A DNA stretch of 64,000 nt from Bythopirellula polymerisocia. Its GTDB lineage: Bacteria > Planctomycetota > Planctomycetia > Pirellulales > Lacipirellulaceae. The position numbers were made by a program, and so were the translations under genes. Numbering within the stretch: the first letter of the stretch is position 1; every line of letters begins with the position of its first letter. The stretch is taken from contig NZ_SJPS01000005.1 of the NCBI RefSeq assembly GCF_007860015.1, positions 124,001 to 188,000 of the forward strand, in the 5' to 3' direction. Positions 11,150 through 53,045 of the stretch are shown piece after piece. The notes below the pieces were generated by a model. The model did no database searches. It had not been told where the DNA came from and was given only the letters and a program-made list of their open reading frames with translations.

Positions 11150-12506
11150 CCATAAATCAGAAAGCAGCTCTCGCCGCGAATTCATCAAGACATCGGCACT
11201 GGCTGCTGCTGCAGCCGCACCCTATTTTGCACCGGCTTCAGTATTCGGAGCCAACGCGCCGAGCAATCGCGTAACTCTGGGCTTTATTGGCGTTGGCAAT
11301 CAGGGATTTCCCGTGATGCAGCGGTTCCTTGAGAACGATCAATGTCAGGCTCTAGCTGTCTGCGATGTGAATCGTGGGAGCAATGGTTATAAAGATGACA
11401 AGCATTTCTACGGACGCGAACCCGCGAGAGATGCTGTCGAAGGATTTTACGCGAAATCGAAAGAGTCGGGCTCCTACAAAGGCTGCGAAGCGTACAACGA
11501 TTTTCGTGATATCATCGGTCGCAAAGATATCGACGCAGTCGTCATCGCTGTTCCCGATCATTGGCACAGCATCATGACGGTTCAAGCTGCCAAGGCAGGC
11601 AAGGACGTTTATTGTGAAAAGCCTTTGGGGCTGACCATTGGCGATCAAAAAGCGATGGTCAAGGCGGTTCGCGAAAATGGTCGAATCCTGCAGACCGGCA
11701 GTCACGAGCGCTCCAACCCAAACGTCCGCAGATTGGTTGAAATCGTACAGAGTGGCGCCATCGGTGACGTGAAACGTGTCGTCGCTAATGTGGGACGTCA
11801 CAACATGATCAGCCCTGGCCCTGGGTGGAAGCCGATGCCGGTACCGGAGGGGTTTGACTACAAAATGTGGCTCGGCCCCGCGCCGGATGCTCCGTATCAC
11901 AAGGATCGTTGCCTCTATCGTTTCCGCTTTAACTACGATTATGCTGGCAGCCAGGTCACGAACTTTGGTGCTCACTCGCTCGACATGGCCCAATGGGCAC
12001 TCGGCATGGATAAATCTGGTCCCGTTCTGGTCGAGCATGTTTATGCTGACTACTTGCCGAAGGGGAGTCTGTTCAATGCGGCCACCTACACGCATTTTCG
12101 CTGCACTTACGACAACGGCATCGTCTTGGACTGCATGACAGGGGTTCCTGAAGTCCGCTGCATCATTGAAGGGACCGAAGGAAGCGTGCGCGTTGAAAAT
12201 CAAGGTCGCAATTTCTTCACGATCCCTGAAGGAATCAAGGCCAAAGTGTGTGGTACGGACGTACCTGATGTGTATGTGAGCAACGACGACCACCAGCGCA
12301 ACTTCATCGACTGTGTTAAGTCCCGCGAAGAACCGGCGGCATCTGTCGAAGTCGGTCATCGAAGTGCTACGGTTTGCCATCTGGGGAATATCGCACTGCG
12401 TCTTAAGACCAAAGTGAAATGGGATCCAGTTAATGAGCAGATTATTGGAAACAAAGAAGCGAGCGCCATGATGAACCGTCCAACGAACCAAGCCTGGCAG
12501 GCCTGA
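11139..12506 (+). CDS. Tat-exported Gfo/Idh/MocA family oxidoreductase
   Basis: About 455 residues from the ATG at 11139, chosen because it has the ribosome-binding site caggag and begins directly with a Tat signal (SSRREFIKTSALAAA). Residues 45-170 are the Rossmann fold (VTLGFIGVGNQG; later DAVVIAVPDHWH and DVYCEKPLGL, the EKP motif of the family). The rest is the Gfo/Idh/MocA C-terminal domain. The family oxidises or reduces sugars with NAD(P); exported members carry their own tightly bound cofactor. It overlaps the lyase gene and is followed after 38 bp by the enolase-superfamily gene, so it probably acts on oligosaccharides or sugars released by the locus. Substrate is not known. A long frame on the opposite strand is a shadow. 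Confidence 0.9.
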   Translation: MPHNHKSESSSRREFIKTSALAAAAAAPYFAPASVFGANAPSNRVTLGFIGVGNQGFPVMQRFLENDQCQALAVCDVNRGSNGYKDDKHFYGREPARDAVEGFYAKSKESGSYKGCEAYNDFRDIIGRKDIDAVVIAVPDHWHSIMTVQAAKAGKDVYCEKPLGLTIGDQKAMVKAVRENGRILQTGSHERSNPNVRRLVEIVQSGAIGDVKRVVANVGRHNMISPGPGWKPMPVPEGFDYKMWLGPAPDAPYHKDRCLYRFRFNYDYAGSQVTNFGAHSLDMAQWALGMDKSGPVLVEHVYADYLPKGSLFNAATYTHFRCTYDNGIVLDCMTGVPEVRCIIEGTEGSVRVENQGRNFFTIPEGIKAKVCGTDVPDVYVSNDDHQRNFIDCVKSREEPAASVEVGHRSATVCHLGNIALRLKTKVKWDPVNEQIIGNKEASAMMNRPTNQAWQA

Positions 12507-12544
12507 TTTCCTGATTTATGCGAATGCAACCTTAGCTAAACCGT

Positions 12545-14008
12545 ATGACTCCACCTAACTCACCACAAACGCTTGCGAAACTATCGACGACTGGCAAGTC
12601 GACCGATATCGCCATCGCTGGTGTGGAGCTGTACTTTTTGCCAGTTACCACACGCGTGCCGCTTAAGTTCGGCTCAGAGACGTTGACATCCGTTACGTGT
12701 GCGCGAGTGCGCGTAAGTGTCGAAGACCGCTCTGGGCGCAAAGCAGAAGGTTGGGGCGAAACTCCGCTCAGCGTCCCTTGGGTCTGGCCTAGCACGATCT
12801 CTCATCGCACGCGAGACCTGGCTTTGCGAGATTTTTGTGAGCAGCTTGCGTCGGCTTGGTCTGCCTTTTCCATGTATGGGCATCCCCTAGAGATTGGCTA
12901 CGAGTTTCAAGAAAACATTTTGCCGACTCTTCTGGCAGGATTCAACCGAGACTGCGCGCTCGACGAACGTATGCCTCTCTTGGCCGGATTGGTTTGCTGC
13001 TCACCCTTCGATATTGCCCTGCATGATGCTTACGGAAATCTGCACGAACGTCCTATCTATGATTGCTACACCGCAGAGTTCATGAACCATGATTTGGCTT
13101 ACTTTCTGGAAGGCGTAGATTCAGAAGGAGCAGATTTCGAGGGCAAGTATCCTATTGATTTCATAAGCCCAAAAGTTCCCGAGACTCTTCCCGTCTGGCA
13201 CCTGGTAGGCGGCGTTGATCTGCTTGACCCGGCAGAAATGAATGGCGACATTCCGCTCGACGGCGAGCCATTTGTGCTCGAAGACTGGATCAATCGAGAC
13301 GGCTTGCAAAACTTAAAGGTGAAGCTCCGCGGCAACGATGCTGACTGGGACTTCGACCGTCTGGTTCAGGTCGGCTTGATTGCTGGCAGGCATGGCCCCT
13401 ACACACTCAGCGCGGACTTCAACTGCACGGTATTGGATCCCGCTTATGTCAACGCAGTTCTCGATCGACTTGCGGCCGAACATCGTGATATCTTCGATGC
13501 GATTCTCTACGTAGAGCAGCCATTTCCCTATGATCTCGAAGCAAACAAGATCGACGTTTCAAGTGTATCGAGTCGTAAGCCCCTTTTGATGGACGAAAGC
13601 GCCCATAATTGGCAGTTGGTGAGGCTAGGTAAGAAACTCGGCTGGACCGGTGTGGCTCTGAAGACCTGTAAGACCCAGACCGGCGCGATCCTTACTCTTT
13701 GTTGGGCCAAGGCCCACAAGATGAGTATTATGGTCCAGGACCTGACAAATCCGATGCTCGCTCAGATTCCTCATGTCTTGCTCGCTGCACACGCGGGAAC
13801 CATGCGGGGGGTCGAGTCAAACGCGATGCAGTTTTATCCCAAGGCCTCACTTCCCGAGGCAAAGGTCCATCCGGGCCTTTATCAACGTCGAGAGGGCAAG
13901 CTCGATCTGAGCTCGATCCAAGGCTCTGGATTCGGCTATCGTGTGAATGAAATTGCACGAGAGCTTGGCGATCCCGTCGCGACCTTCGGAAGTTTCGCAA
14001 AAGACTAA
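12545..14008 (+). CDS. Enolase-superfamily (mandelate racemase / muconate lactonising type) enzyme
   Basis: 487 residues. Residues 20-160 form the capping domain (VELYFLPVTTRVPLKFG, then GWGETPLS). Residues 250-470 form the (beta/alpha)7-beta barrel with the metal and catalytic motifs of the superfamily: LKVKLRG, LSADFNC, VEQPF and LMDESAHN. These enzymes abstract a proton alpha to a carboxylate using a magnesium-stabilised enolate; sugar-acid dehydratases are common members. The setting in a uronate-polysaccharide operon suggests a sugar-acid dehydratase or epimerase, an inference. It is longer than a typical 370-400-residue member because of an extra segment at about 160-235. Cytoplasmic: no signal peptide. 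Confidence 0.88.
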   Translation: MTPPNSPQTLAKLSTTGKSTDIAIAGVELYFLPVTTRVPLKFGSETLTSVTCARVRVSVEDRSGRKAEGWGETPLSVPWVWPSTISHRTRDLALRDFCEQLASAWSAFSMYGHPLEIGYEFQENILPTLLAGFNRDCALDERMPLLAGLVCCSPFDIALHDAYGNLHERPIYDCYTAEFMNHDLAYFLEGVDSEGADFEGKYPIDFISPKVPETLPVWHLVGGVDLLDPAEMNGDIPLDGEPFVLEDWINRDGLQNLKVKLRGNDADWDFDRLVQVGLIAGRHGPYTLSADFNCTVLDPAYVNAVLDRLAAEHRDIFDAILYVEQPFPYDLEANKIDVSSVSSRKPLLMDESAHNWQLVRLGKKLGWTGVALKTCKTQTGAILTLCWAKAHKMSIMVQDLTNPMLAQIPHVLLAAHAGTMRGVESNAMQFYPKASLPEAKVHPGLYQRREGKLDLSSIQGSGFGYRVNEIARELGDPVATFGSFAKD

Positions 14009-44013: not shown

Positions 44014-45141
44014 GTGAGTTCTGATCGGTTCCCCACGTCCTGGCAATCTTTCAGTATGGGTCACATCGATGTCATCGAGAAAGCGTTTGGCACACAACCT
44101 CTAATCAATGTTGTGGCCCATAACGAACTGCGCACGCGGCTGAGCTATTGGCAAGAATTTCTCGCGCGTCAGGGTGCGGGACCGCTGAATCGTGATCCCT
44201 CGTGGTTGTTGATCTTGGCTGAAGGGCGAGGGCATGTGCCCTACTGTTTGGAAGCGATTTATGGTGGGCAAGTCAGGGGGATACTCCCTTTGGCACTGGT
44301 GGCCGGTCCACTCTTCGGACGGTTTCTGGTGAGCCTCCCGCATGTGAGTAGCGGGGGTGTTTGTGCGGACAATCCCGCGACGGCGCTCGATTTGGTGGAT
44401 CAAGCCATTGCGCTCGCCGACGATTTGAACGTCGATTTTCTTGAATTGCGCCACCAGCGTTTGATACCACATGCGCAACTGGAACACGTGGTCACCGACA
44501 AAGCCCATATGCTGATGGAGTTGCCTGCGGACGAAGGCCTGCTGTGGGACCAAGTCGGCACCAAAGTTCGTAATCAGGTCCGCAAGGCGGAGAAATTGTC
44601 GTTTCGTGGGACTTGGGGGGGCGTGGAAATTCTCGACGAATTTTACACGATCTACACCCGGCGCATGCGCGACTTCGGAACGCCCACCGATAGCATGGTG
44701 TTGTTCGAGCGGATTCTGGCTTGCTTTCCGCAGCGGGCCGAATTGATCGTCGTGCGGCAGCTAGATCGACCGGTCGCGGCGGCGATGGTGCTACATGGTC
44801 AGGGGTTCTCCGAGATACACCGCAGCGCCTCGCTTACCGAGTTGCGTTCCACCGGCGTCAACACCTGGCTGCATTGGCAGGCGTTACTGCGCGCGCAGCA
44901 GCGCGGCAATCGACTCTTTGATTTCGGGCGTCCGACTGTCGGTTCCAGTGTCTACACGTTCAAGAAACGCTTTGGCGCAAAACCTCAGCCTGCGGCCGTG
45001 CAGCACTATTTGCGCCGCGGTTCGCCCGAGGCGCTACGACGCGCGGGAGGCAAGTTCAATTTGCCGATCAAGCTGTGGGGTTGCTTGCCGGTCTACGCCA
45101 CGCGGTGGCTGGGGCCTTGGATCACGCGGGGGATGCCGTGA
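44014..45141 (+). CDS. FemAB-like acyltransferase associated with XrtA/PEP-CTERM systems
   Basis: 375 residues from a GTG with ribosome-binding site agaagg; ATG at 44056 is a possible alternative start. It has the GNAT/FemAB fold: LPLALVAGPLFGRFLVSLP, KVRNQVRKAEKL, and the conserved end RLFDFGRPTVGSSVYTFKKRFGA shortened as FDFGRPTVG. This matches the TIGR03019-type proteins found with exosortase XrtA in extracellular-polymer loci; they are thought to transfer an amino acid or acyl group to an envelope substrate. No exosortase is in the window, though three PEP-CTERM-like tails are (at 3451, 4899 and 8819). Cytoplasmic or membrane-peripheral. Confidence 0.85.
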   Translation: MSSDRFPTSWQSFSMGHIDVIEKAFGTQPLINVVAHNELRTRLSYWQEFLARQGAGPLNRDPSWLLILAEGRGHVPYCLEAIYGGQVRGILPLALVAGPLFGRFLVSLPHVSSGGVCADNPATALDLVDQAIALADDLNVDFLELRHQRLIPHAQLEHVVTDKAHMLMELPADEGLLWDQVGTKVRNQVRKAEKLSFRGTWGGVEILDEFYTIYTRRMRDFGTPTDSMVLFERILACFPQRAELIVVRQLDRPVAAAMVLHGQGFSEIHRSASLTELRSTGVNTWLHWQALLRAQQRGNRLFDFGRPTVGSSVYTFKKRFGAKPQPAAVQHYLRRGSPEALRRAGGKFNLPIKLWGCLPVYATRWLGPWITRGMP

Positions 45142-45976: not shown

Positions 45977-47722
45977 TCAGCGACTGACCCAGTCAGAAAG
46001 TTGAGCCAAGTTTCCCAAATCCATACGCACCAGCGCGTCATGGGGACAGGCACGTTGACACGCTGGCCCACCGACCTGATCAGCACACAGGTCGCATTTG
46101 GTCGCCTTGTGGATCGGCTGCTGGGTATTTTGGTCGACAAGAATGGCTCCACTCGTGTCGCGGACCTCGACCATGTTAATATTGCCATAAGGACAGCTAT
46201 TGGCACACGTGCTGCAACCAATGCAAGTAAGGTCGTTGATCCGCACGATGCCAGTGGCTATATCGCGACCAATTGCTCCCGTGGGACAGCCAATCATACA
46301 GACCGGGTCCGCACAGTGCATGCAGGCCTGAGCAATCATGAACGGCCCATGGCGCTGGCCCTGGCGAACAAAGCGGGGATTGTTGTCGTGGGTCGCGGCA
46401 CATGCCCGCACACAATCGTCGCATCGTGTGCAACGATCGAGATCAATGACCATAGCTTGTTGGCCATTGATAAGCCGTCGCTCGACCAGGAATTCCAAGA
46501 GCGGGGTATCGATTCGCGGTTGTTCATCGCCAAGTTGCCCGTCACGAGACTGGCAATGCTCCGTGGTGCAGGAGACTGCGTGCTTCATAGCAACTTCAGC
46601 CAACGACTCTCGCGAACAGTACGGGAAAACATGCTCTGAGAGTACTTGCTGAGGGATGCGCAGCACGTCGACGTAGCCGAGTGCCCGCATGGAATGAGTT
46701 AACGAGGTTATTTCACTTCCCATGGCGGACTGAATCGCCTCGCTAAGTCCGAACACCTGCCCCTTGCCCAAGTAGGCAACCGTGCGATGTCCGCTTCCAA
46801 AATGGTGACTCAACCGGGCAAAGCCCGAACGGACCAGCAGGATGCCATCGCAAGGGGAACCCTCTTCCGCAATCAATGGTTCAGTGACGATTGCTTCAGG
46901 CCGCATCTGACGAGAAACATCAAAGGTAGCGTGCCATTCAAAGTTGCCATGTGACTCGAAGACGGTATCCGCGACAACCTTCTCCAAGGCATCGGGGGGC
47001 AACTGCGACAAGAGAGGCGTTTCACGGAGATGGACCCGCAAGCTGTTCTGACGGTAGAGCTGTTCGACGTGTTGACGGAGCGAATCAGTGTGTCGCATCA
47101 TATCGCGCAAACCCTGCCAACGGATTTCTAGAAGCCACGCTTCCCCTTCAGCCAACACCGTTGCCGTACGAGGTGTACGAGTAAGTGCGGCAAGTTCTCC
47201 GAATATTTCGCCCGGCTTGAGCGTCACCGTGCGAGAGTCACCCAAGACTCGTGGCACATCTTGCAGAAAGACTCGAGTCTGGGTGAGATCGGCCACCTCT
47301 TCGATATTGTCGTCGACAAAATCCTGTCTCGCACGGATTGCCTGACGAACTTCTGGCAGTTTTGGGCTACGCCACATGCGGACGAGTGATTTCAGGAAAC
47401 CTTGTTTTTGGTTTGGTTGCCTACCAAGCAATTCGGGATCGAGTCCCGATAGCACCACCTGCGCTCGACCTCGCAAGACGAGAAATGCACTGTTACCGTA
47501 GTCCCCCTCGCGGACGATGATGCCTCCGCTGGGGTAGTAATTGATTCGAGTGTCGTTCTTGAGGATCTCTCGCAGGGGCAAGGCCGAAGGAAACGCCGAC
47601 GTGTCCATCTCGTAGAAGGGATCCAGCTCAAGGAGTTGATCGACTTCGGCATCACCCATGGCATTGCCAAAGGGTGCATCCCAGCGTTGTGGTCGCTCGA
47701 CGGCTACTTCTAACAACGACAT
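45977..47722 (-). CDS. Fusion of two cyclic-nucleotide-binding domains with a four-cluster 4Fe-4S ferredoxin
   Basis: 581 residues. Residues 60-210 are a cNMP-binding domain with an intact phosphate-binding cassette, GEIFGELAALTRTPRTATV (Glu176, Arg185), and a roughly 70-residue insertion (92-168). Residues 240-365 are a second, degenerate cNMP domain (FGLSEAIQSAMGSEI, no cassette Arg). Residues 425-575 are an NrfC/DmsB-like ferredoxin with four complete cysteine sets: CTRCDDCVRAC, CMHCADPVCMIGC, CIGCSTCANSC and CDLCADQVGGPACQRAC. Sixteen cysteines match four 4Fe-4S clusters. No signal peptide, so cytoplasmic. It is last in a three-gene operon with a tetraheme cytochrome and a flavin reductase. 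A cyclase gene lies across the divergent promoter region. Electron flow gated by cyclic nucleotide is inferred. Confidence 0.92.
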   Translation of the reverse strand: MSLLEVAVERPQRWDAPFGNAMGDAEVDQLLELDPFYEMDTSAFPSALPLREILKNDTRINYYPSGGIIVREGDYGNSAFLVLRGRAQVVLSGLDPELLGRQPNQKQGFLKSLVRMWRSPKLPEVRQAIRARQDFVDDNIEEVADLTQTRVFLQDVPRVLGDSRTVTLKPGEIFGELAALTRTPRTATVLAEGEAWLLEIRWQGLRDMMRHTDSLRQHVEQLYRQNSLRVHLRETPLLSQLPPDALEKVVADTVFESHGNFEWHATFDVSRQMRPEAIVTEPLIAEEGSPCDGILLVRSGFARLSHHFGSGHRTVAYLGKGQVFGLSEAIQSAMGSEITSLTHSMRALGYVDVLRIPQQVLSEHVFPYCSRESLAEVAMKHAVSCTTEHCQSRDGQLGDEQPRIDTPLLEFLVERRLINGQQAMVIDLDRCTRCDDCVRACAATHDNNPRFVRQGQRHGPFMIAQACMHCADPVCMIGCPTGAIGRDIATGIVRINDLTCIGCSTCANSCPYGNINMVEVRDTSGAILVDQNTQQPIHKATKCDLCADQVGGPACQRACPHDALVRMDLGNLAQLSDWVSR

Positions 47723-47736
47723 AAGTGTCTCGCGGT

Positions 47737-48804
47737 CTATTTAGTCTTGTATTGGGCTGGCGCGGGTAAGAGCGGATCGATTGCGGCGAGTGAGCTGCCA
47801 TCTGTTTGAGCGGCAAAGTTATAGGCTGCCTTCCCGACAGAATCAGCGGCGGCCGTGAGCTCGGCGTTGTGGTTGAGCTTCAGCGGTACGCTTAATGCGG
47901 CATGCAGGGCATCGTCGATATGGGGATCGCTGACGCGTTGGCTGATGTCGTAGAGCTTACGTTTCAGACCGGCCGCCCGTTGGGCCGCGGCTATGCCGAA
48001 GGGGGCTTTGGAAGTGGCCTGTGCGGTGGCGCGGAGACTTGCTTCGAGATCGGCCAGAACGCCGACAACGTACATCACGCGGAGTTGTTCAGGAGCTGAT
48101 TGGGCATTCGCCGCTCCCCCCGTGCGCAGAAAGTTGTGTCGTACCATCCCTTGGGACCAGGACACCAGTTCGAATTCCTTGCTCCCAGCCGCGTGGTCTC
48201 CGACGTTTACCAACGCTTCATTCGGAGTCGTGTGGCAAGCAAGGCACTGCCGCGCGATGAGATACAGATTGGTTGGGTTATTCATTCCCGCCTGAACGCT
48301 GGTCTCGATCCGTTCTTGGCGGTGTTCAGGAGTTTCAGATTCCTTGGTGGCGTTTGGTCCACCGTAATCGTTATGTAAGGCGATCCAGTCCCTTGCCGCT
48401 CCATGGCACGATTCACAGGAGACTCCTGCGACCACACGAATCCGCTCGTCAACCTGTTGCTGAGTGTAATGACAATTGACGCAGGTATCATTGCGTTTCA
48501 CACTGCCAAGTCCCAACCGATCGGCAATGGCTTTTGCCTCGGCTTTGCGATGCAGCGAGTCGAAGGTGGTGAAGTGTGGTGTAGCATGCCAGGCTTGCAT
48601 CTCATTTTCATGGCATTTCGTACAGGAGTCGGGCCCCAGCATTTCGGCGGGGTCACTGATGATTTGATAAATCTGATTTTCGGCTTCGGCGGCGACTAGA
48701 GAGGCAGAACAGTACAAATACAAGCACGATGCAAAACAACGAAGCATTGCCTTCTGACAATGCCACTCGTGTTTCGTTCTGATTTTGGCGAGACAATGAT
48801 CCAT
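47737..48804 (-). CDS. Exported tetraheme cytochrome c (c554-like)
   Basis: 355 residues from the ATG at 48804, which touches the stop of the upstream gene; an ATG at 48747 (MLRCFASCLYLYCSASLVAAE) starts directly at the signal peptide and may be the real one. Four haem-binding CXXCH sites: CTKCH, CVNCH, CESCH and CLACH. Extra histidines (HATPHFTTF, HNDYGG) could be distal ligands. Resembles cytochrome c554-type proteins used in periplasmic electron transfer. The C-terminal half is alpha-helical and has no further haem sites. Its position between a flavin/2Fe-2S reductase and a cNMP/4Fe-4S protein implies one redox pathway across the membrane. Confidence 0.88.
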   Translation of the reverse strand: MDHCLAKIRTKHEWHCQKAMLRCFASCLYLYCSASLVAAEAENQIYQIISDPAEMLGPDSCTKCHENEMQAWHATPHFTTFDSLHRKAEAKAIADRLGLGSVKRNDTCVNCHYTQQQVDERIRVVAGVSCESCHGAARDWIALHNDYGGPNATKESETPEHRQERIETSVQAGMNNPTNLYLIARQCLACHTTPNEALVNVGDHAAGSKEFELVSWSQGMVRHNFLRTGGAANAQSAPEQLRVMYVVGVLADLEASLRATAQATSKAPFGIAAAQRAAGLKRKLYDISQRVSDPHIDDALHAALSVPLKLNHNAELTAAADSVGKAAYNFAAQTDGSSLAAIDPLLPAPAQYKTK

Positions 48805-50088
48805 TTAAGCGTCCAGTACCACTTCACCCTGAGGCTGTCCGATGCATGTGAGGCACTCATCGTCGCCCAGCGGAACACCCGGTGTCTTGCTGTGGGCGAC
48901 TTTGCCGCTACGAACCTTCACGAGACATTGTCCGCAGTTGCCCGCACGGCACCCAGAATCAAGTACCAGTCCCGCATCTTCGGCCAAGTCCAAGAGATCC
49001 GAGAAATCACCTTTCCACAGTAGTTCGGTGTTCGACTTGGTAAACTCGACACGACAGGGTTGGCAAAGTGTATTGCCTTTTTTGTGCAAGCTTTTTACCG
49101 ACGCCGGGCCGAATGCCTCGAAGTGTATGTGCTTTTCTGGGACTCCCCAATTCAATAAGCCTGGCACAAGTTGCTCCATCATGCCTGCAGGCCCGCAGAG
49201 ATAAAAGCGAAAGTTACTAGAGGGGAGCAACTGTCGCAGGCGGACAATGCTGATGTGACCCTGATATTGGTAATCTCGGCCCAACCTGTCATCGGCCAAA
49301 GGTCGTGAGTAGGTGATGTCGCTATGAATATTCTCGGCTTGGGCAAGCGATGCGATCTGCTTCTTAAAAGGGTGTTCACTGCTGTTTCGAAATCCAGCGA
49401 AGAAGTACACGCTCCTGGAGCTTCGCTCATGGACGATGGAACTGGCCATGCTCAAGAGGGGAGTGATACCGACGCCACCCGCAATGAGCACGATGGGTAA
49501 ATGGTCGGTAGGATCGAGAAAAAAAGCTCCCTGTGGTGCTTGCACCTTCAGCTCGCTGCCAACCTTCGCACGATGGTGAAAATAGCTGCTCCCTTGGCCA
49601 GACGGCAGGTCAGCTCTTTCGAGTGGAGACTCCGACCTCTTGATGGTAACGCGGTAGTAATCTTCGCGGGGGCGATCGGAAAGCGAATAACAGCGGACGA
49701 TCGGCTTTCGGTGTGGATCAACGGGCAAACTAAAGGTCAGATATTGCCCTGGCTCGAATCGTGGTAATGCTCGGCCATCGGCGGCAACTAGGTAGAAACT
49801 CTTGTAGCCGACAGCCTCATCCACGATAGCTGCTACACGAAAGGGCCTTTCACCAGCCCAGGCACGGTAGATTGGCTTGGTAGCTCTAGCATACTTCAGC
49901 TCACCTGCTAGTTGCTTCTCAAATCTAGTGCGCTGATCTTGGTAACGACGACGAAGCCTGCTTGTCCTGGATCGGTTCCCCACGATGGTAGCAAGCGCCT
50001 CCAGGCCACTCACCCCAATCAGGGCGGCTCCTGAAACGATTCCTAGCGATTGCCAATCCACGTTGCATCCTTGCAAGTCTTGAGTCAT
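48805..50088 (-). CDS. Membrane-anchored flavin reductase with plant-type 2Fe-2S domain
   Basis: About 427 residues from the ATG at 50088, which follows ribosome-binding site aggaagg; an ATG at 50103 is also in frame. A single N-terminal membrane helix (LGIVSGAALIGVSGLEALATI) anchors it. Next come an FAD-binding fold (RCYSLSDRP), an NAD(P)-binding fold (IVLIAGGVGITPLLSMAS) and a C-terminal 2Fe-2S ferredoxin with DSGCRAGNCGQC and CLTC as ligands. Relatives include flavohaemoglobin reductase domains and HCP reductases. It would pass electrons from NAD(P)H to a one-electron carrier. First gene of the three-gene operon; its end abuts the cytochrome gene, so translation is coupled. Partner not proven. 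Confidence 0.9.
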   Translation of the reverse strand: MTQDLQGCNVDWQSLGIVSGAALIGVSGLEALATIVGNRSRTSRLRRRYQDQRTRFEKQLAGELKYARATKPIYRAWAGERPFRVAAIVDEAVGYKSFYLVAADGRALPRFEPGQYLTFSLPVDPHRKPIVRCYSLSDRPREDYYRVTIKRSESPLERADLPSGQGSSYFHHRAKVGSELKVQAPQGAFFLDPTDHLPIVLIAGGVGITPLLSMASSIVHERSSRSVYFFAGFRNSSEHPFKKQIASLAQAENIHSDITYSRPLADDRLGRDYQYQGHISIVRLRQLLPSSNFRFYLCGPAGMMEQLVPGLLNWGVPEKHIHFEAFGPASVKSLHKKGNTLCQPCRVEFTKSNTELLWKGDFSDLLDLAEDAGLVLDSGCRAGNCGQCLVKVRSGKVAHSKTPGVPLGDDECLTCIGQPQGEVVLDA

Positions 50089-50288
50089 TTTGCCTTCCTG
50101 CATCGGCGGAAGACTAGGGAAGCGGCATTATTTCGCAACCTGCGAGGTGTGTCGAGAACAAATCGCCATCATAGCTAGCGGAGGGTGGTATTGATTCTGC
50201 GGACCGTGAGGGCAGGGTTGGAGCAGGGAATAACCTACCTTCTCATAGGGGCTGTTCAGCGCTGAACCCCTTGTTTTCCTGAGCCTGC
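50089..50288. promoter_or_regulatory. Shared divergent promoter region of the redox operon and the cyclase
   Basis: 200 bp between outward-facing starts (50088 minus, 50289 plus). It must carry both promoters. I found no clear cAMP-receptor-protein palindrome. The short distance supports co-regulation of the cyclase and the cyclic-nucleotide-binding redox operon. Confidence 0.4.
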
Positions 50289-51791
50289 ATGGCAGCCACG
50301 ATGCTCGACTCTTCGCCCCCTCCTTTCACGCACGACTTTGCTCCTCTGCTGGGTAAGGCTGCGCTCGCTAATTTCTCTCCACATCTTGGCAATGCTACGC
50401 CGATTGAGGGTCCCTCGTCGCTCACCTGGAACAAATGGCTAACTGCCATTTCCCAGTTGCATCGAGCATCGGCGGATTCACCGGCTTTTTTTTTAGATGC
50501 CGTACGATTCGCCATCGAAACGATTGGACTCGATGCGGCCTGCGTTTTGAGTTATGCAAGTCAGCCTCACGGCGGATCGTGGCACGAGCTGGCAAACGAT
50601 GGCTGTGCGGTCAGTGGAAAAGTGCGGCCGGATGAGACGGTTTTGAGAATGCTCGCGGGCAATCCGGTGGCTTGTTATCAATCAAGTCTGCCGAACGTAG
50701 CGGGAGTTGTTGACACGCAAGCTGTGGCACTCGCACCAGTTCTTGATTCTTCCGGCGAATTGATCGGATGCATTTATGGCGTTCGCAATAATTACGGATC
50801 CAATCGGCGGAGGGGTATTCGGCCTTTCGAAGCACGCATGTTACAAGTGCTGGCCGAGTCAGTAGCCGTGGGTATCGCTCGCATCGAGCTAGAAAAGGTG
50901 GCGGCACGGACCCGTGTGTTATTGGAACAAGCCTTTTCGCCAACTGTTGTCGGGCATATTCAGCGCCATCCCGAGTGTCTTGCTGGTCAGCTGCGCGAGG
51001 TAACGCTGCTGTTTTCCGATCTTCGAGGCTTCACTTCGTTGGCCGAGACATTGCCTCCCGCCGAGTGTTATCGATTGCTGGGGGATGTGATGGAAGTTTT
51101 TACTGCCGCTGTGATCGATCATGCGGGGATTGTCGTCGACTATTATGGCGACGGATTACTCGCAATGTGGAACGCTCCAATTGACCAGGCTGAGCAAGCA
51201 GACTTGTCATGCAGAGCAGCACTAGCCATGTTCGACGCTCTAAAACGAGTTTCCGAGCAATGGCTTCCTACAATGCAGGTTCCCTTGGAAATGGGCATTG
51301 GCATCCACACAGGGGAGGTGCTAGTTGGCAATGCAGGGACAAAGTTCCGCCTGAAATACGGTCCCCGCGGAAGCAATGTTAATCTAGCCAACCGCGTGCA
51401 GGCCGCCACCAAACAACTCGAGACACCGCTCCTTATAACCGGGCCAACACAGCAGAAGTTATCGAACCGTTTTTTCTCTCTTCGAGTTTGTACGGCGCGA
51501 CTCCCTGGGCTGGAACAACCGGTGGAACTTTTCGCAGTTTATCCTGCAAGCTTTTCTGCGGAGGTTAAGGCTCGGTTAGATCAATACTCCCATGCCCTCC
51601 GGAACTACGAGGCAGGAGAATTCACACATGCCGAGGAACTGTTGTCTGATCTCGTGAGGGCTGACTCGGTCAGCCCGGCACGTTTCTTGGCACATCAGGC
51701 CGCTACGATGCGGCATGCGGAAATCGGTCGTCGGGCTTCGGACAAGGGCATCGGGAAGATGGATTGTGTGATCGATATTTTTGAGAAATAG
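50289..51791 (+). CDS. GAF-domain class III nucleotide cyclase
   Basis: 500 residues. Residues 55-200 are a GAF-type sensor (FFLDAVRFAIETIGLDAACVL; ALAPVLDSSGELIGCIYGV). A short helix links to a class III cyclase catalytic domain (about 225-400). Both metal-binding aspartates are present, Asp244 in LFSDLRGFTS and Asp288 in DYYGDGLLAMW, 44 residues apart as usual. The base-recognising positions are unusual: the Lys before GD is Asp284 and the usual Asp is Ser362 in YGPRGSNVNLANR. The transition-state Asn and Arg (NLANR) remain. It should make a cyclic nucleotide, but cAMP or cGMP cannot be chosen. No membrane segment. A C-terminal region (420-500) is helical. Confidence 0.9.
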   Translation: MAATMLDSSPPPFTHDFAPLLGKAALANFSPHLGNATPIEGPSSLTWNKWLTAISQLHRASADSPAFFLDAVRFAIETIGLDAACVLSYASQPHGGSWHELANDGCAVSGKVRPDETVLRMLAGNPVACYQSSLPNVAGVVDTQAVALAPVLDSSGELIGCIYGVRNNYGSNRRRGIRPFEARMLQVLAESVAVGIARIELEKVAARTRVLLEQAFSPTVVGHIQRHPECLAGQLREVTLLFSDLRGFTSLAETLPPAECYRLLGDVMEVFTAAVIDHAGIVVDYYGDGLLAMWNAPIDQAEQADLSCRAALAMFDALKRVSEQWLPTMQVPLEMGIGIHTGEVLVGNAGTKFRLKYGPRGSNVNLANRVQAATKQLETPLLITGPTQQKLSNRFFSLRVCTARLPGLEQPVELFAVYPASFSAEVKARLDQYSHALRNYEAGEFTHAEELLSDLVRADSVSPARFLAHQAATMRHAEIGRRASDKGIGKMDCVIDIFEK

Positions 51792-51800
51792 TCGTGAAGA

Positions 51801-53045
51801 CTATTTCTTTAGATTCTCACTCTCGGGCATGGGCAAGGCCTCAGCCAACTCTGTTGCCTTACGCATCCCAGGGAGCCAATACTTATCTAGAGGACAAAAG
51901 ACTTGTACGAAGTAAGGCAAAGGCAGATTGGAATAGGTTGGTTGCAACAATATGGGTTCGCCGTCGCTTAGGATGAGACATCCTGACGTTTCAGACGAAG
52001 GGACAGAACAGTTGCCTGTGACTGTCAGTCCAGCAGAACTCATTTGGAATTTACAGGCCAGCTTCTCAAATGATAGTCCGTCGGCGGCATGAGCTATAGA
52101 GAGTTTTTTTCCTGCTACGCAGAATAGTGACTTCCTCAGTGCCGTGGTAAGAGAGCTGCTGATCTGGCCAGCCTCCGATTCGAGCGACCCTTTTGCATCA
52201 CTGATGCGGTGCTTCTGCAAGTGGAGAGTCTCAAACTGCAGGCTCGCTGTAGAACGCAACGTGTGCGGAGAATCGTTGCCGAGCCACTCTTGCAAATCGA
52301 TTGGTGAGAATGTCCCTTGCAAAGTTCCCTCTGTGGAGTCCTGGGCAGTATGAAGTTGTAATGCGCCTGTAAAATTGGCGGCGTTCCATCTGGACGCCCC
52401 TGGGATTAAATCCGCGAAGAACCAAGCAGGTAGTTGACCCTCTCGGCAGTCGAGGGACAAATCCCAGCTACCGTTTTCTGCTCGCTCAACTTGAAATCGC
52501 AAGTGCCCACGCTCTGCTTCAGCAGTTACCACGTCGGCCTGGACGATCAACTTGCGATCCAACGCTTTCATATCCTTAATGACTATCACCACATTGGCCA
52601 ATTCGAAAACCTGGCTCGCACTTCGCGCGAATAATAGTTTGTCTACTTTGATAGTTACTGAGGGAAGTTCAGCATCGGAGAGCCAGCCCTGCAATGTTCT
52701 TGTCAGATCGTCCATCTTATTGCAAGATAATTCGATCTGATCTGCAAAGATTGAATGGTCAGACAGCAAGTGCAGCTTATCGACCGTGGCGAGAGTGGAA
52801 TCTGATTGCAAATCAGCGAGGCGGACTGCGAAGAGTTGCCGTTCTCCGGGAGAGGGTGCAGTCACCTTTGAAATGCTGGAGCGAATGTGCAGGTTATTCT
52901 CCAGCACACGTTGCCAGTCCTGCTCCTGCCACGGGCGATGAAAGTAGAGCACGCCAACGACTGAGAATACCGTCGGCACAATGCACGCGAGAACGTATAC
53001 GGCGCGGCAAACACGGCGCTGAGTTCTTTCATGCATCGAGAACAT
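51801..53045 (-). CDS. Membrane-anchored protein of unknown function (AsmA-like layout)
   Basis: 414 residues. One N-terminal helix (AVYVLACIVPTVFSVVGVLYF) after a basic start suggests a signal anchor with a large extracytoplasmic part. The rest is beta-rich with periodic strands (VDKLHLLSDHSIFADQIELS, LSLDCREGQLPAWFFADLI) that recall AsmA-type lipid-handling proteins, but similarity is too weak to claim. It converges with the cyclase (9-bp gap) and is followed, on the same strand, 47 bp later by nothing until aroC upstream. No enzyme motif seen. Confidence 0.65.
   Translation of the reverse strand: MFSMHERTQRRVCRAVYVLACIVPTVFSVVGVLYFHRPWQEQDWQRVLENNLHIRSSISKVTAPSPGERQLFAVRLADLQSDSTLATVDKLHLLSDHSIFADQIELSCNKMDDLTRTLQGWLSDAELPSVTIKVDKLLFARSASQVFELANVVIVIKDMKALDRKLIVQADVVTAEAERGHLRFQVERAENGSWDLSLDCREGQLPAWFFADLIPGASRWNAANFTGALQLHTAQDSTEGTLQGTFSPIDLQEWLGNDSPHTLRSTASLQFETLHLQKHRISDAKGSLESEAGQISSSLTTALRKSLFCVAGKKLSIAHAADGLSFEKLACKFQMSSAGLTVTGNCSVPSSETSGCLILSDGEPILLQPTYSNLPLPYFVQVFCPLDKYWLPGMRKATELAEALPMPESENLKK

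Follow-up and report, generated by a model that had tools for sequence, protein, structure and literature searches.

A cyclic-nucleotide-binding iron–sulfur protein as a candidate valve of a PCC4-type electron conduit in Bythopirellula polymerisocia

In a 64,000-nucleotide stretch of the Bythopirellula polymerisocia genome (G000:C5:124001-188000; hereafter the window, its genome being G000), three genes on the reverse strand encode a flavin reductase, a tetraheme cytochrome and a protein with two cyclic-nucleotide-binding (CNB) domains and a four-cluster ferredoxin part, 2xCNB/4x[4Fe-4S] (the CNB/Fe-S protein). A class III nucleotidyl cyclase is divergently oriented across 185 bp. We propose, with a probability of roughly 0.55, that this operon is the entry part of a trans-envelope electron conduit of the PCC4 type and that the CNB/Fe-S protein is its cyclic-nucleotide-controlled valve. 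What we observe in favor of this proposal is the gene content, synteny and co-occurrence of the conduit genes, the conservation of a nucleotide-binding cassette, the fold of the modeled protein and, among 39 chosen Planctomycetes rows of a tree, decayed cassettes exclusively at loci without an adjacent cyclase.

A preliminary description of the window had named the three-gene operon and a cyclase across a divergent region of about 200 bp. All four open reading frames (ORFs) are confirmed, with the gap measuring 185 bp. Its interpretation is partly supported: it was right in kind, but the module extends further and is in part already known.

A canonical cassette on a four-cluster ferredoxin

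The CNB/Fe-S protein matches cNMP_binding in Pfam (E 2.3e-25), several Fer4 families above cut-off, and PF13247 (37.9 bits, cut-off 26.2). Sixteen of its 20 cysteines make four 4Fe-4S motifs, and all 16 are invariant in a 29-sequence alignment, which bears out the earlier reading of two cNMP-binding domains joined to four 4Fe-4S clusters. Glu176 and Arg185 of the first CNB domain (CNB1) are located in the stretch FGELAALTRTPRTATV.

To follow this cassette across phyla, we used 115 loci, excluding the duplicates L073-L076 and L145 (left out of the neighbor counts as well) and the truncated L152. Gly-Glu is present in 113 of the 115 and the Arg in 111, and in 102 the Arg is followed by Thr/Ser/Ala and then Ala/Ser/Thr. 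The second domain (CNB2) is cassette-like in 10 of the 115 loci, all within L060-L070. An intact first and a degenerate second cassette, as read previously from the window, is thus a conserved pattern. In 82 sequences from several phyla, Gly175, Glu176 and Arg182 are invariant and Arg185 is conserved in at least 90%, with a mean column identity of 48%. CNB1 has a canonical phosphate-binding cassette and CNB2 does not; binding of a ligand by CNB1 is predicted.

A structure model based on the 82-sequence alignment (predicted local distance difference test, pLDDT, 85.7; predicted template-modeling score, pTM, 0.84) replaced a poor one from 29 sequences (pLDDT 61.9). In a Foldseek search its top match was the tandem CNB of PKG I beta, and the PKA tandem CNBs were also among the best solved matches. 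This likeness is one of domain fold and not of whole-chain superposition, for which template-modeling scores were low.

The other two operon products are also well defined. The reductase matches FAD_binding_6, NAD_binding_1 and Fer2, all above the Pfam cut-off, and contains the motifs RCYS at residue 137, GGVGITP at 209 and C-x4-C-x2-C at 385. Besides its N-terminal anchor, the hydropathy scan marks residues 202-220, which lie where the NAD-binding match starts. The tetraheme cytochrome matches PF13435 (E 1.7e-16). Coordinates are collected in Table 1.

Table 1. Features of the operon region in window positions, with one order-level example
Feature	Position	Strand	Size and basis
2xCNB/4x[4Fe-4S] protein	45977..47722	-	581 aa; Fe-S gene of PCC4 subgroup II type
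Fe-S domain, residues 422-568, HycB/HydN/DmsB-like	46019..46459	-	16 Cys, four 4Fe-4S motifs
CNB2, about residues 236-380 (limits by eye), degenerate cassette	46583..47017	-	Pfam and cassette reading
CNB1, about residues 24-235 (limits by eye)	47018..47653	-	Pfam and model; long insert before cassette
CNB1 phosphate-binding cassette GEIFGELAALTRTPRTATVLAE, residues 171-192	47147..47212	-	conserved GE and Arg
Tetraheme cytochrome c554-family protein	47737..48804	-	355 aa; CxxCH at residues 61, 108, 130, 187
FAD/NAD(P)H/2Fe-2S reductase, N-terminal anchor	48805..50103	-	432 aa; Pfam and motifs
Reductase N-terminal hydrophobic segment, residues 20-40	49984..50046	-	hydropathy scan
Divergent intergenic region	50104..50288	.	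185 bp; between reductase and cyclase
Class III nucleotidyl cyclase, weak N-terminal GAF match	50289..51791	+	500 aa
Predicted cyclase catalytic domain, residues 235-393	50991..51467	+	alignment to Cya2 2w01; invariant residues in adjacent cyclases
Order-level example L060, CNB/Fe-S and NuoE/NuoF-like genes	L060:9397-11889 and 11900-13657		

Conduit genes in relatives and in the window genome

PCC4 is a putative porin-cytochrome c conduit for extracellular electron transfer, named in Zetaproteobacteria, with Planctomycetes and Zetaproteobacteria listed as carriers (He, Barco, Emerson and Roden 2017, PMC5566968). As described in that paper's main text, it comprises 4-, 5- and 10-heme cytochromes, a porin and an inner-membrane protein with five transmembrane helices, two WX3HX13H motifs and SGXXG; in subgroup II, the membrane-protein gene is preceded by a pfam13247 Fe-S gene and the tetraheme gene by a redox gene. 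In gene content the operon matches the cytosolic and near-membrane part of such a putative subgroup II conduit.

We compared neighborhoods in the family of the window genome, Lacipirellulaceae (43 genomes searched), and beyond. A wider, capped genome search kept the best 80 relatives of the CNB/Fe-S protein, which come from several phyla and mostly match over nearly their full length. Up to 20 kb was taken around each relative, and ORFs of these and of the 80 wider-search loci were clustered. The usual family gene order is reductase, tetraheme cytochrome, CNB/Fe-S protein, a membrane protein of ~275 aa and a decaheme protein. The decaheme cluster has a median length of 686 aa and exactly 10 CxxCH in 89 of 106 members. 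Two WX3HX13H motifs, predicting two b hemes, occur in 89 of the 90 clustered membrane proteins (85 non-duplicate loci), and SGXXG in 82 of 90. A pentaheme cytochrome and a porin candidate were found at 41 loci each, duplicates included; the porin candidates end in Phe in 37 of 41 members and have no Pfam match. In a Mariprofundus metagenome-assembled genome (MAG; L085), the porin, reductase, tetraheme, CNB/Fe-S, membrane-protein and decaheme genes are consecutive.

Among 75 non-duplicate wider-search loci, many of them short, 57 have the membrane protein on the same strand at a distance of up to 600 bp and 65 have the decaheme gene on the same strand. The tetraheme relative is present anywhere in 65 (same strand 45) and the reductase in 63 (same strand 57); a pentaheme gene was seen at 27 loci and a porin gene at 25. 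For the 41 family and order loci, window included, the corresponding counts are membrane protein 28 (within 600 bp in 20), decaheme 36, tetraheme 32, reductase 27, pentaheme 12 and porin 14. The CNB gene is present in 28 of the 43 family genomes, and the decaheme, pentaheme and porin candidate in 29 each; the four genes are all present (27) or all absent (13) in 40 of 43. The exceptions are G004 (no pentaheme or porin), G012 (no CNB gene) and G036 (no CNB gene or decaheme), and the assembly of each is incomplete or fragmented.

In the window genome, the membrane protein and decaheme genes lie ~50 kb off at G000:C5:223230-226045 (L155 8230-11045), and the pentaheme and porin matches on another contig at G000:C6:274642-278915. 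The decaheme protein has 10 hemes. The membrane protein carries WX3HX13H motifs at W71 and W244 and the sequence SGLVG; a simple hydropathy scan marks three regions in it, against five helices in the PCC4 description. The pentaheme homologue is 72% identical to the 5-heme protein of L037 (its own hemes uncounted), and the porin candidate homologue (G000:C6:274642-276426) is 63% identical to the L037 candidate. In the nearest relative, G005 (86% identity), two genes stand between operon and membrane protein (L031), an arrangement midway towards the split of the window genome.

The operon does not stand alone as a module. It belongs, in relatives, to a larger putative conduit of the PCC4 type that is split in the window genome. 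The earlier observation that no molybdopterin subunit is present holds for the proteins scanned; what is missing beside the operon is not an oxidoreductase but the membrane protein and the decaheme cytochrome, to which relatives often add the pentaheme cytochrome and the porin candidate. We also considered the Fe-S part as a subunit of a molybdopterin-type enzyme. None of the six neighboring window proteins scanned was a molybdopterin- or NrfD-type partner, and this assignment was rejected because the conserved neighbors in relatives are the reductase, cytochromes, membrane protein and porin candidate.

Two side observations concern these genes. The L155 decaheme protein (L155:8943-11045) has a Cys-rich N-terminal part before a single predicted transmembrane segment (residues 133-151), and this part is possibly cytosolic and metal-binding. 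The separating genes in G005 (L031:12661-15900) encode 374 and 497 aa, sizes akin to the FemAB-like and Gfo/Idh-like neighbors in the window.

Exchange of the NADH-side module

Nine order-level loci (L060-L068) encode a longer protein, with an open frame of 822-944 aa and two extra 4Fe-4S motifs before the CNB domains. At its N-terminus a HoxU/NuoG-like 2Fe-2S motif was read in four loci, and one has Fer2_4 and Nqo3-like Pfam matches. CNB2 has Gly-Glu in all nine, with a varying Arg stretch in L064, L066 and L068; the CNB1 Glu is missing in L063 and L065. A NuoE/NuoF-like gene (cluster c14) is present in eight of the nine, with domains confirmed for L060; the membrane protein and decaheme are present in seven; and ORF clustering detected no flavin reductase in these loci. 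With the reductase replaced by NuoEF/NuoG-like parts and the CNB/Fe-S protein and conduit retained, the NADH-side module has been swapped, and these loci are apparently an NADH-dehydrogenase-fed version of the same conduit. Such a swap around a constant CNB/Fe-S protein is as expected if this protein is a controlled junction between NADH and the membrane.

At two other loci (L069:8324-10477 and L070:8091-10280) the encoded 2xCNB/4x4Fe-4S proteins have a long insert ahead of the second cassette, and no cytochrome cluster was detected in either locus.

The adjacent cyclase and the state of the cassette

The window cyclase has a Guanylate_cyc match (E 4.8e-19), which confirms the class III part of the earlier GAF-class III assignment; the GAF match is weak and below cut-off (19.4 bits vs 22.4, Pfam). 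Asp244, Asp288, Asn365 and Arg369 are invariant in the 16 adjacent cyclases aligned. We take the first two to be the metal-binding aspartates and the last two the transition-state residues. The best solved relative is Synechocystis Cya2 (2w01; E 2.3e-28). Asp284 sits where Cya2 has Glu488, and Gly358 is the same as in Cya2 at the second substrate position; both are present in all 16. Cya2 is a guanylate cyclase whose E488K variant shows adenylate cyclase activity (PMC5995499, in part). Given the likeness to Cya2 and the acidic Asp284 and Gly358 at substrate positions, cGMP is the better guess for the product, a plausible one, over cAMP. Away from the operon, G000:C13:50828-52120 encodes another cyclase, longer (open frame of 632 aa) and 36% identical, which has homologues of similar length in many family genomes.

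The preliminary description saw maker and receiver of a cyclic nucleotide side by side and took lack of conservation of this pairing as grounds against its proposal. Of the 26 family loci whose slot could be read, 17, the window among them, have the cyclase next to the operon in divergent orientation and nine do not; this count omits G004, G031 and the second G002 copy (L033), where the slot was unreadable. The cyclase also adjoins the operon in four further Planctomycetes loci (L080, L081, L086 and L096), whose cyclases have Asp at position 284 too, with a KYG motif in three of the four (stretch read). The pairing is thus conserved in relatives, the nine family loci aside, and this ground against the proposal does not apply.

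Adjacency tracks the state of the cassette. All 17 family loci with an adjacent cyclase have an intact CNB1 cassette, and six of the nine without it have an altered one: His for Arg185 (L053-L055), RPATV (L042, L044) or RMVTV (L035). In the tree of 39 Planctomycetes rows (L058 and L060-L070 were dropped, and L111 is not among them), alterations fall in three separate clades and spare all 21 rows where the cyclase is adjacent.

Genome-wide absence of class III cyclases was considered as a cause of cassette decay. It explains decay in part at most, since a search of 57 genomes (threshold 1e-5) found class III cyclases in 54. Among the genomes whose cassette has His at 185, three in all, one lacks any class III match and the other two each have one weak match.

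Within the family, two further gene clusters keep a place next to the operon: c7, which by eye looks chorismate-synthase-like, and c8. Five family loci (L034, L036, L039, L040 and L041) keep the cyclase where c7/c8 were not seen, and five loci (L035, L042, L044, L054 and L055) keep c7/c8 without the cyclase, the same slot looking like a clean absence. The cyclase linkage thus exceeds local synteny.

In a Phycisphaerales MAG, a 947-aa cyclase-like frame is convergent to the decaheme gene (L111:10636-15916).

Proposed mechanism and alternatives

In the proposed mechanism, electrons from NAD(P)H would pass through the FAD/2Fe-2S reductase to the four predicted 4Fe-4S clusters of the CNB/Fe-S protein, then to the inner-membrane protein with its two predicted b hemes, and via periplasmic deca-, tetra- and pentaheme cytochromes to a porin, presumably in the outer membrane, and the outside. 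We infer this outward direction from the cytosolic NAD(P)H modules. A nucleotide from the neighboring Cya2-like cyclase, cGMP being likelier than cAMP, would bind CNB1; CNB2 would act as a structural relay; and a change in the CNB pair would alter the docking of the Fe-S domain or its passing of electrons, either opening or closing the path. The more specific proposal, that cGMP directly gates the conduit, with a dedicated guanylyl cyclase setting how fast NAD(P)H electrons exit via the CNB-ferredoxin in response to GAF-like sensing, is tentative and in our estimate falls short of even odds.

Several observations weigh against control by a dedicated, adjacent cyclase or against the outward conduit. 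The association of cyclase adjacency with an intact cassette (Fisher p 3.6e-4) ignores relatedness, and the cassette is intact in 12 of the 18 tree rows that lack a neighboring cyclase (the slot of L033, among these 12, is unreadable). Outside Planctomycetes, tblastn found no cyclase directly beside the cluster and weak hits several kb off (L083, L109, L141), which makes the pairing a lineage feature. L111 has its cyclase-like frame just past the decaheme gene and a cassette altered to RGAT. The Nitrospinae locus L105 lost the cassette Arg, and its genome has 14 class III matches; G141 has an intact cassette and no class III match at 1e-5, and L136 and L147, outside Planctomycetes, have altered cassettes too. 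The Asp in place of the Cya2 Glu keeps the cGMP assignment uncertain. The conduit genes of the window genome are themselves split between a distant site and another contig, and He et al. draw PCC4 electrons as running from outside inward to quinone (PMC5566968).

We weighed four alternatives. The cyclase might be a neighbor held by local synteny, with CNB1 reading the general cAMP/cGMP pool. The conservation of c7 and c8 beside the operon, the five loci that keep them without the cyclase, and the presence of class III cyclases in nearly all genomes searched speak for this, but the cyclase also stays in five family loci where c7/c8 were not seen and in the four further Planctomycetes loci, and cassette decay in the family tracks the adjacent cyclase; we regard this alternative as rather unlikely. 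Even a cyclase that belongs to the system might face a CNB pair that lost, or never had, a nucleotide response and serves as a structural or assembly platform in a constitutive conduit. We find this doubtful. It would account for a CNB2 that lacks a cassette outside the order-level variants, for the three clades that changed CNB1 yet kept the conduit genes, and for several intact cassettes without an adjacent cyclase, but it sits poorly with the conservation of Gly175, Glu176 and Arg185 despite 48% mean column identity and with decay confined, among the 39 rows, to loci that no cyclase adjoins.

The remaining alternatives concern the electrons. Inward flow from an extracellular donor such as Fe(II) accords with the PCC4 model and habitats of He et al. 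(PMC5566968). That model ends at quinone, however, whereas the modules on the cytosolic side are here of the NAD(P)H flavin/Fe-S or NuoEF/NuoG-like kind and most simply donate NAD(P)H electrons; extracellular donors of that sort could reduce NAD+ only with an input of energy, none being evident, and we consider inward flow unlikely. The periplasmic side might also perform local chemistry, such as the handling of NO or hydroxylamine by the c554-family cytochrome, instead of extracellular transfer. Membership of the tetraheme protein in that family, a best NCBIfam match of the reductase to NO-inducible flavohemoprotein (below its cut-off), and the pentaheme and porin counts in the wider search (27 and 25 of 75 loci, many short) favor this idea, but the porin and pentaheme are present in 27 of the 28 family genomes with the CNB gene, and we think it improbable.

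If the CNB/Fe-S protein is indeed a nucleotide-controlled valve, an electron-transfer chain would be under the direct control of a cyclic nucleotide. This would be second-messenger allostery over electron flow, and not over transcription, a kinase or an ion channel, in a conduit family found in several phyla. The putative PCC4 conduit would also gain a cytosolic donor, NAD(P)H, and a switch. The CNB/Fe-S gene would serve as a marker for such conduits in Planctomycetes, Verrucomicrobia, Proteobacteria and other groups, and the cyclase-less lineages with altered cassettes would offer matched comparison species.

Other features near the operon

A perfect 14-bp palindrome, GTTCAGCGCTGAAC, lies at 50254-50267 between the reductase and cyclase genes. 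Four related intergenic regions were scanned and did not contain it; when one mismatch is tolerated, G000 has three copies (2 for the reversed control) and G005 one (3 for the control). From these palindrome scans and genome counts, a CRP/FNR-like operator in the divergent region is not established.

The window also encodes, at 51801-53045, a 414-aa protein (cluster c8) that is kept near the operon in family relatives (14 non-duplicate loci) and has no Pfam or NCBIfam match at E 0.1. A FemAB-like protein at 44014-45141 is near an XrtA/PEP-CTERM-associated family (254.2 bits, cut-off 260.4).

Comparison with known systems

The CNB pair resembles those of PKG and PKA in its tandem fold and in the canonical cassette of CNB1. 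It differs in that the output is a 4x[4Fe-4S] ferredoxin and not a kinase, that CNB2 is degenerate, and that whole-chain template-modeling scores are low. The 16-Cys domain is like that of the four-cluster subunits of HycB/HydN/DmsB type, but the window has no adjoining molybdopterin or hydrogenase subunit, and scores lie far below the family cut-offs. Cya2, the closest solved relative of the cyclase, shares an acidic residue and a Gly at the two substrate positions; it has a CHASE2 N-terminus where the window protein is GAF-like, Glu where the latter has Asp, and the activity of the window protein is predicted. In Xanthomonas, the product of the gene linked to a class III cyclase reportedly binds cGMP, and the output there is said to be c-di-GMP signaling, not electron transfer. 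The window and these cGMP pathway genes, XC_0250/XC_0249 (PMC3770947, in part), have in common a partner gene linked to a class III cyclase.

The closest counterpart is PCC4 subgroup II as described in the main text of He et al. (PMC5566968). Shared with it are the 4-, 5- and 10-heme cytochromes (the 10- and 5-heme proteins encoded outside the window), the membrane protein with two WX3HX13H motifs and SGXXG, the pfam13247 Fe-S gene upstream of the membrane protein in relatives, and a reductase directly upstream of the tetraheme gene; for the porin there is a candidate. This likeness is one of gene content, order and motifs, and the Mariprofundus set of L085 was likened by content. Here, by contrast, NAD(P)H input is proposed in place of quinone, and the window genome has the genes split. 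Neither a pair of CNB domains on the Fe-S protein nor a linked cyclase is mentioned in the sections on PCC4, and the word "cyclic" occurs 0 times in the main text. No literature linking a CNB domain to a multiheme conduit was found in titles and abstract openings, most subscription papers and supplements being outside reach, and "cyclic nucleotide-binding domain" was absent from the papers returned by a full-text literature search, among the matches listed. Set against PCC4 as described, what appears new is a cyclic-nucleotide layer on the entry protein of the conduit, together with a linked cyclase.

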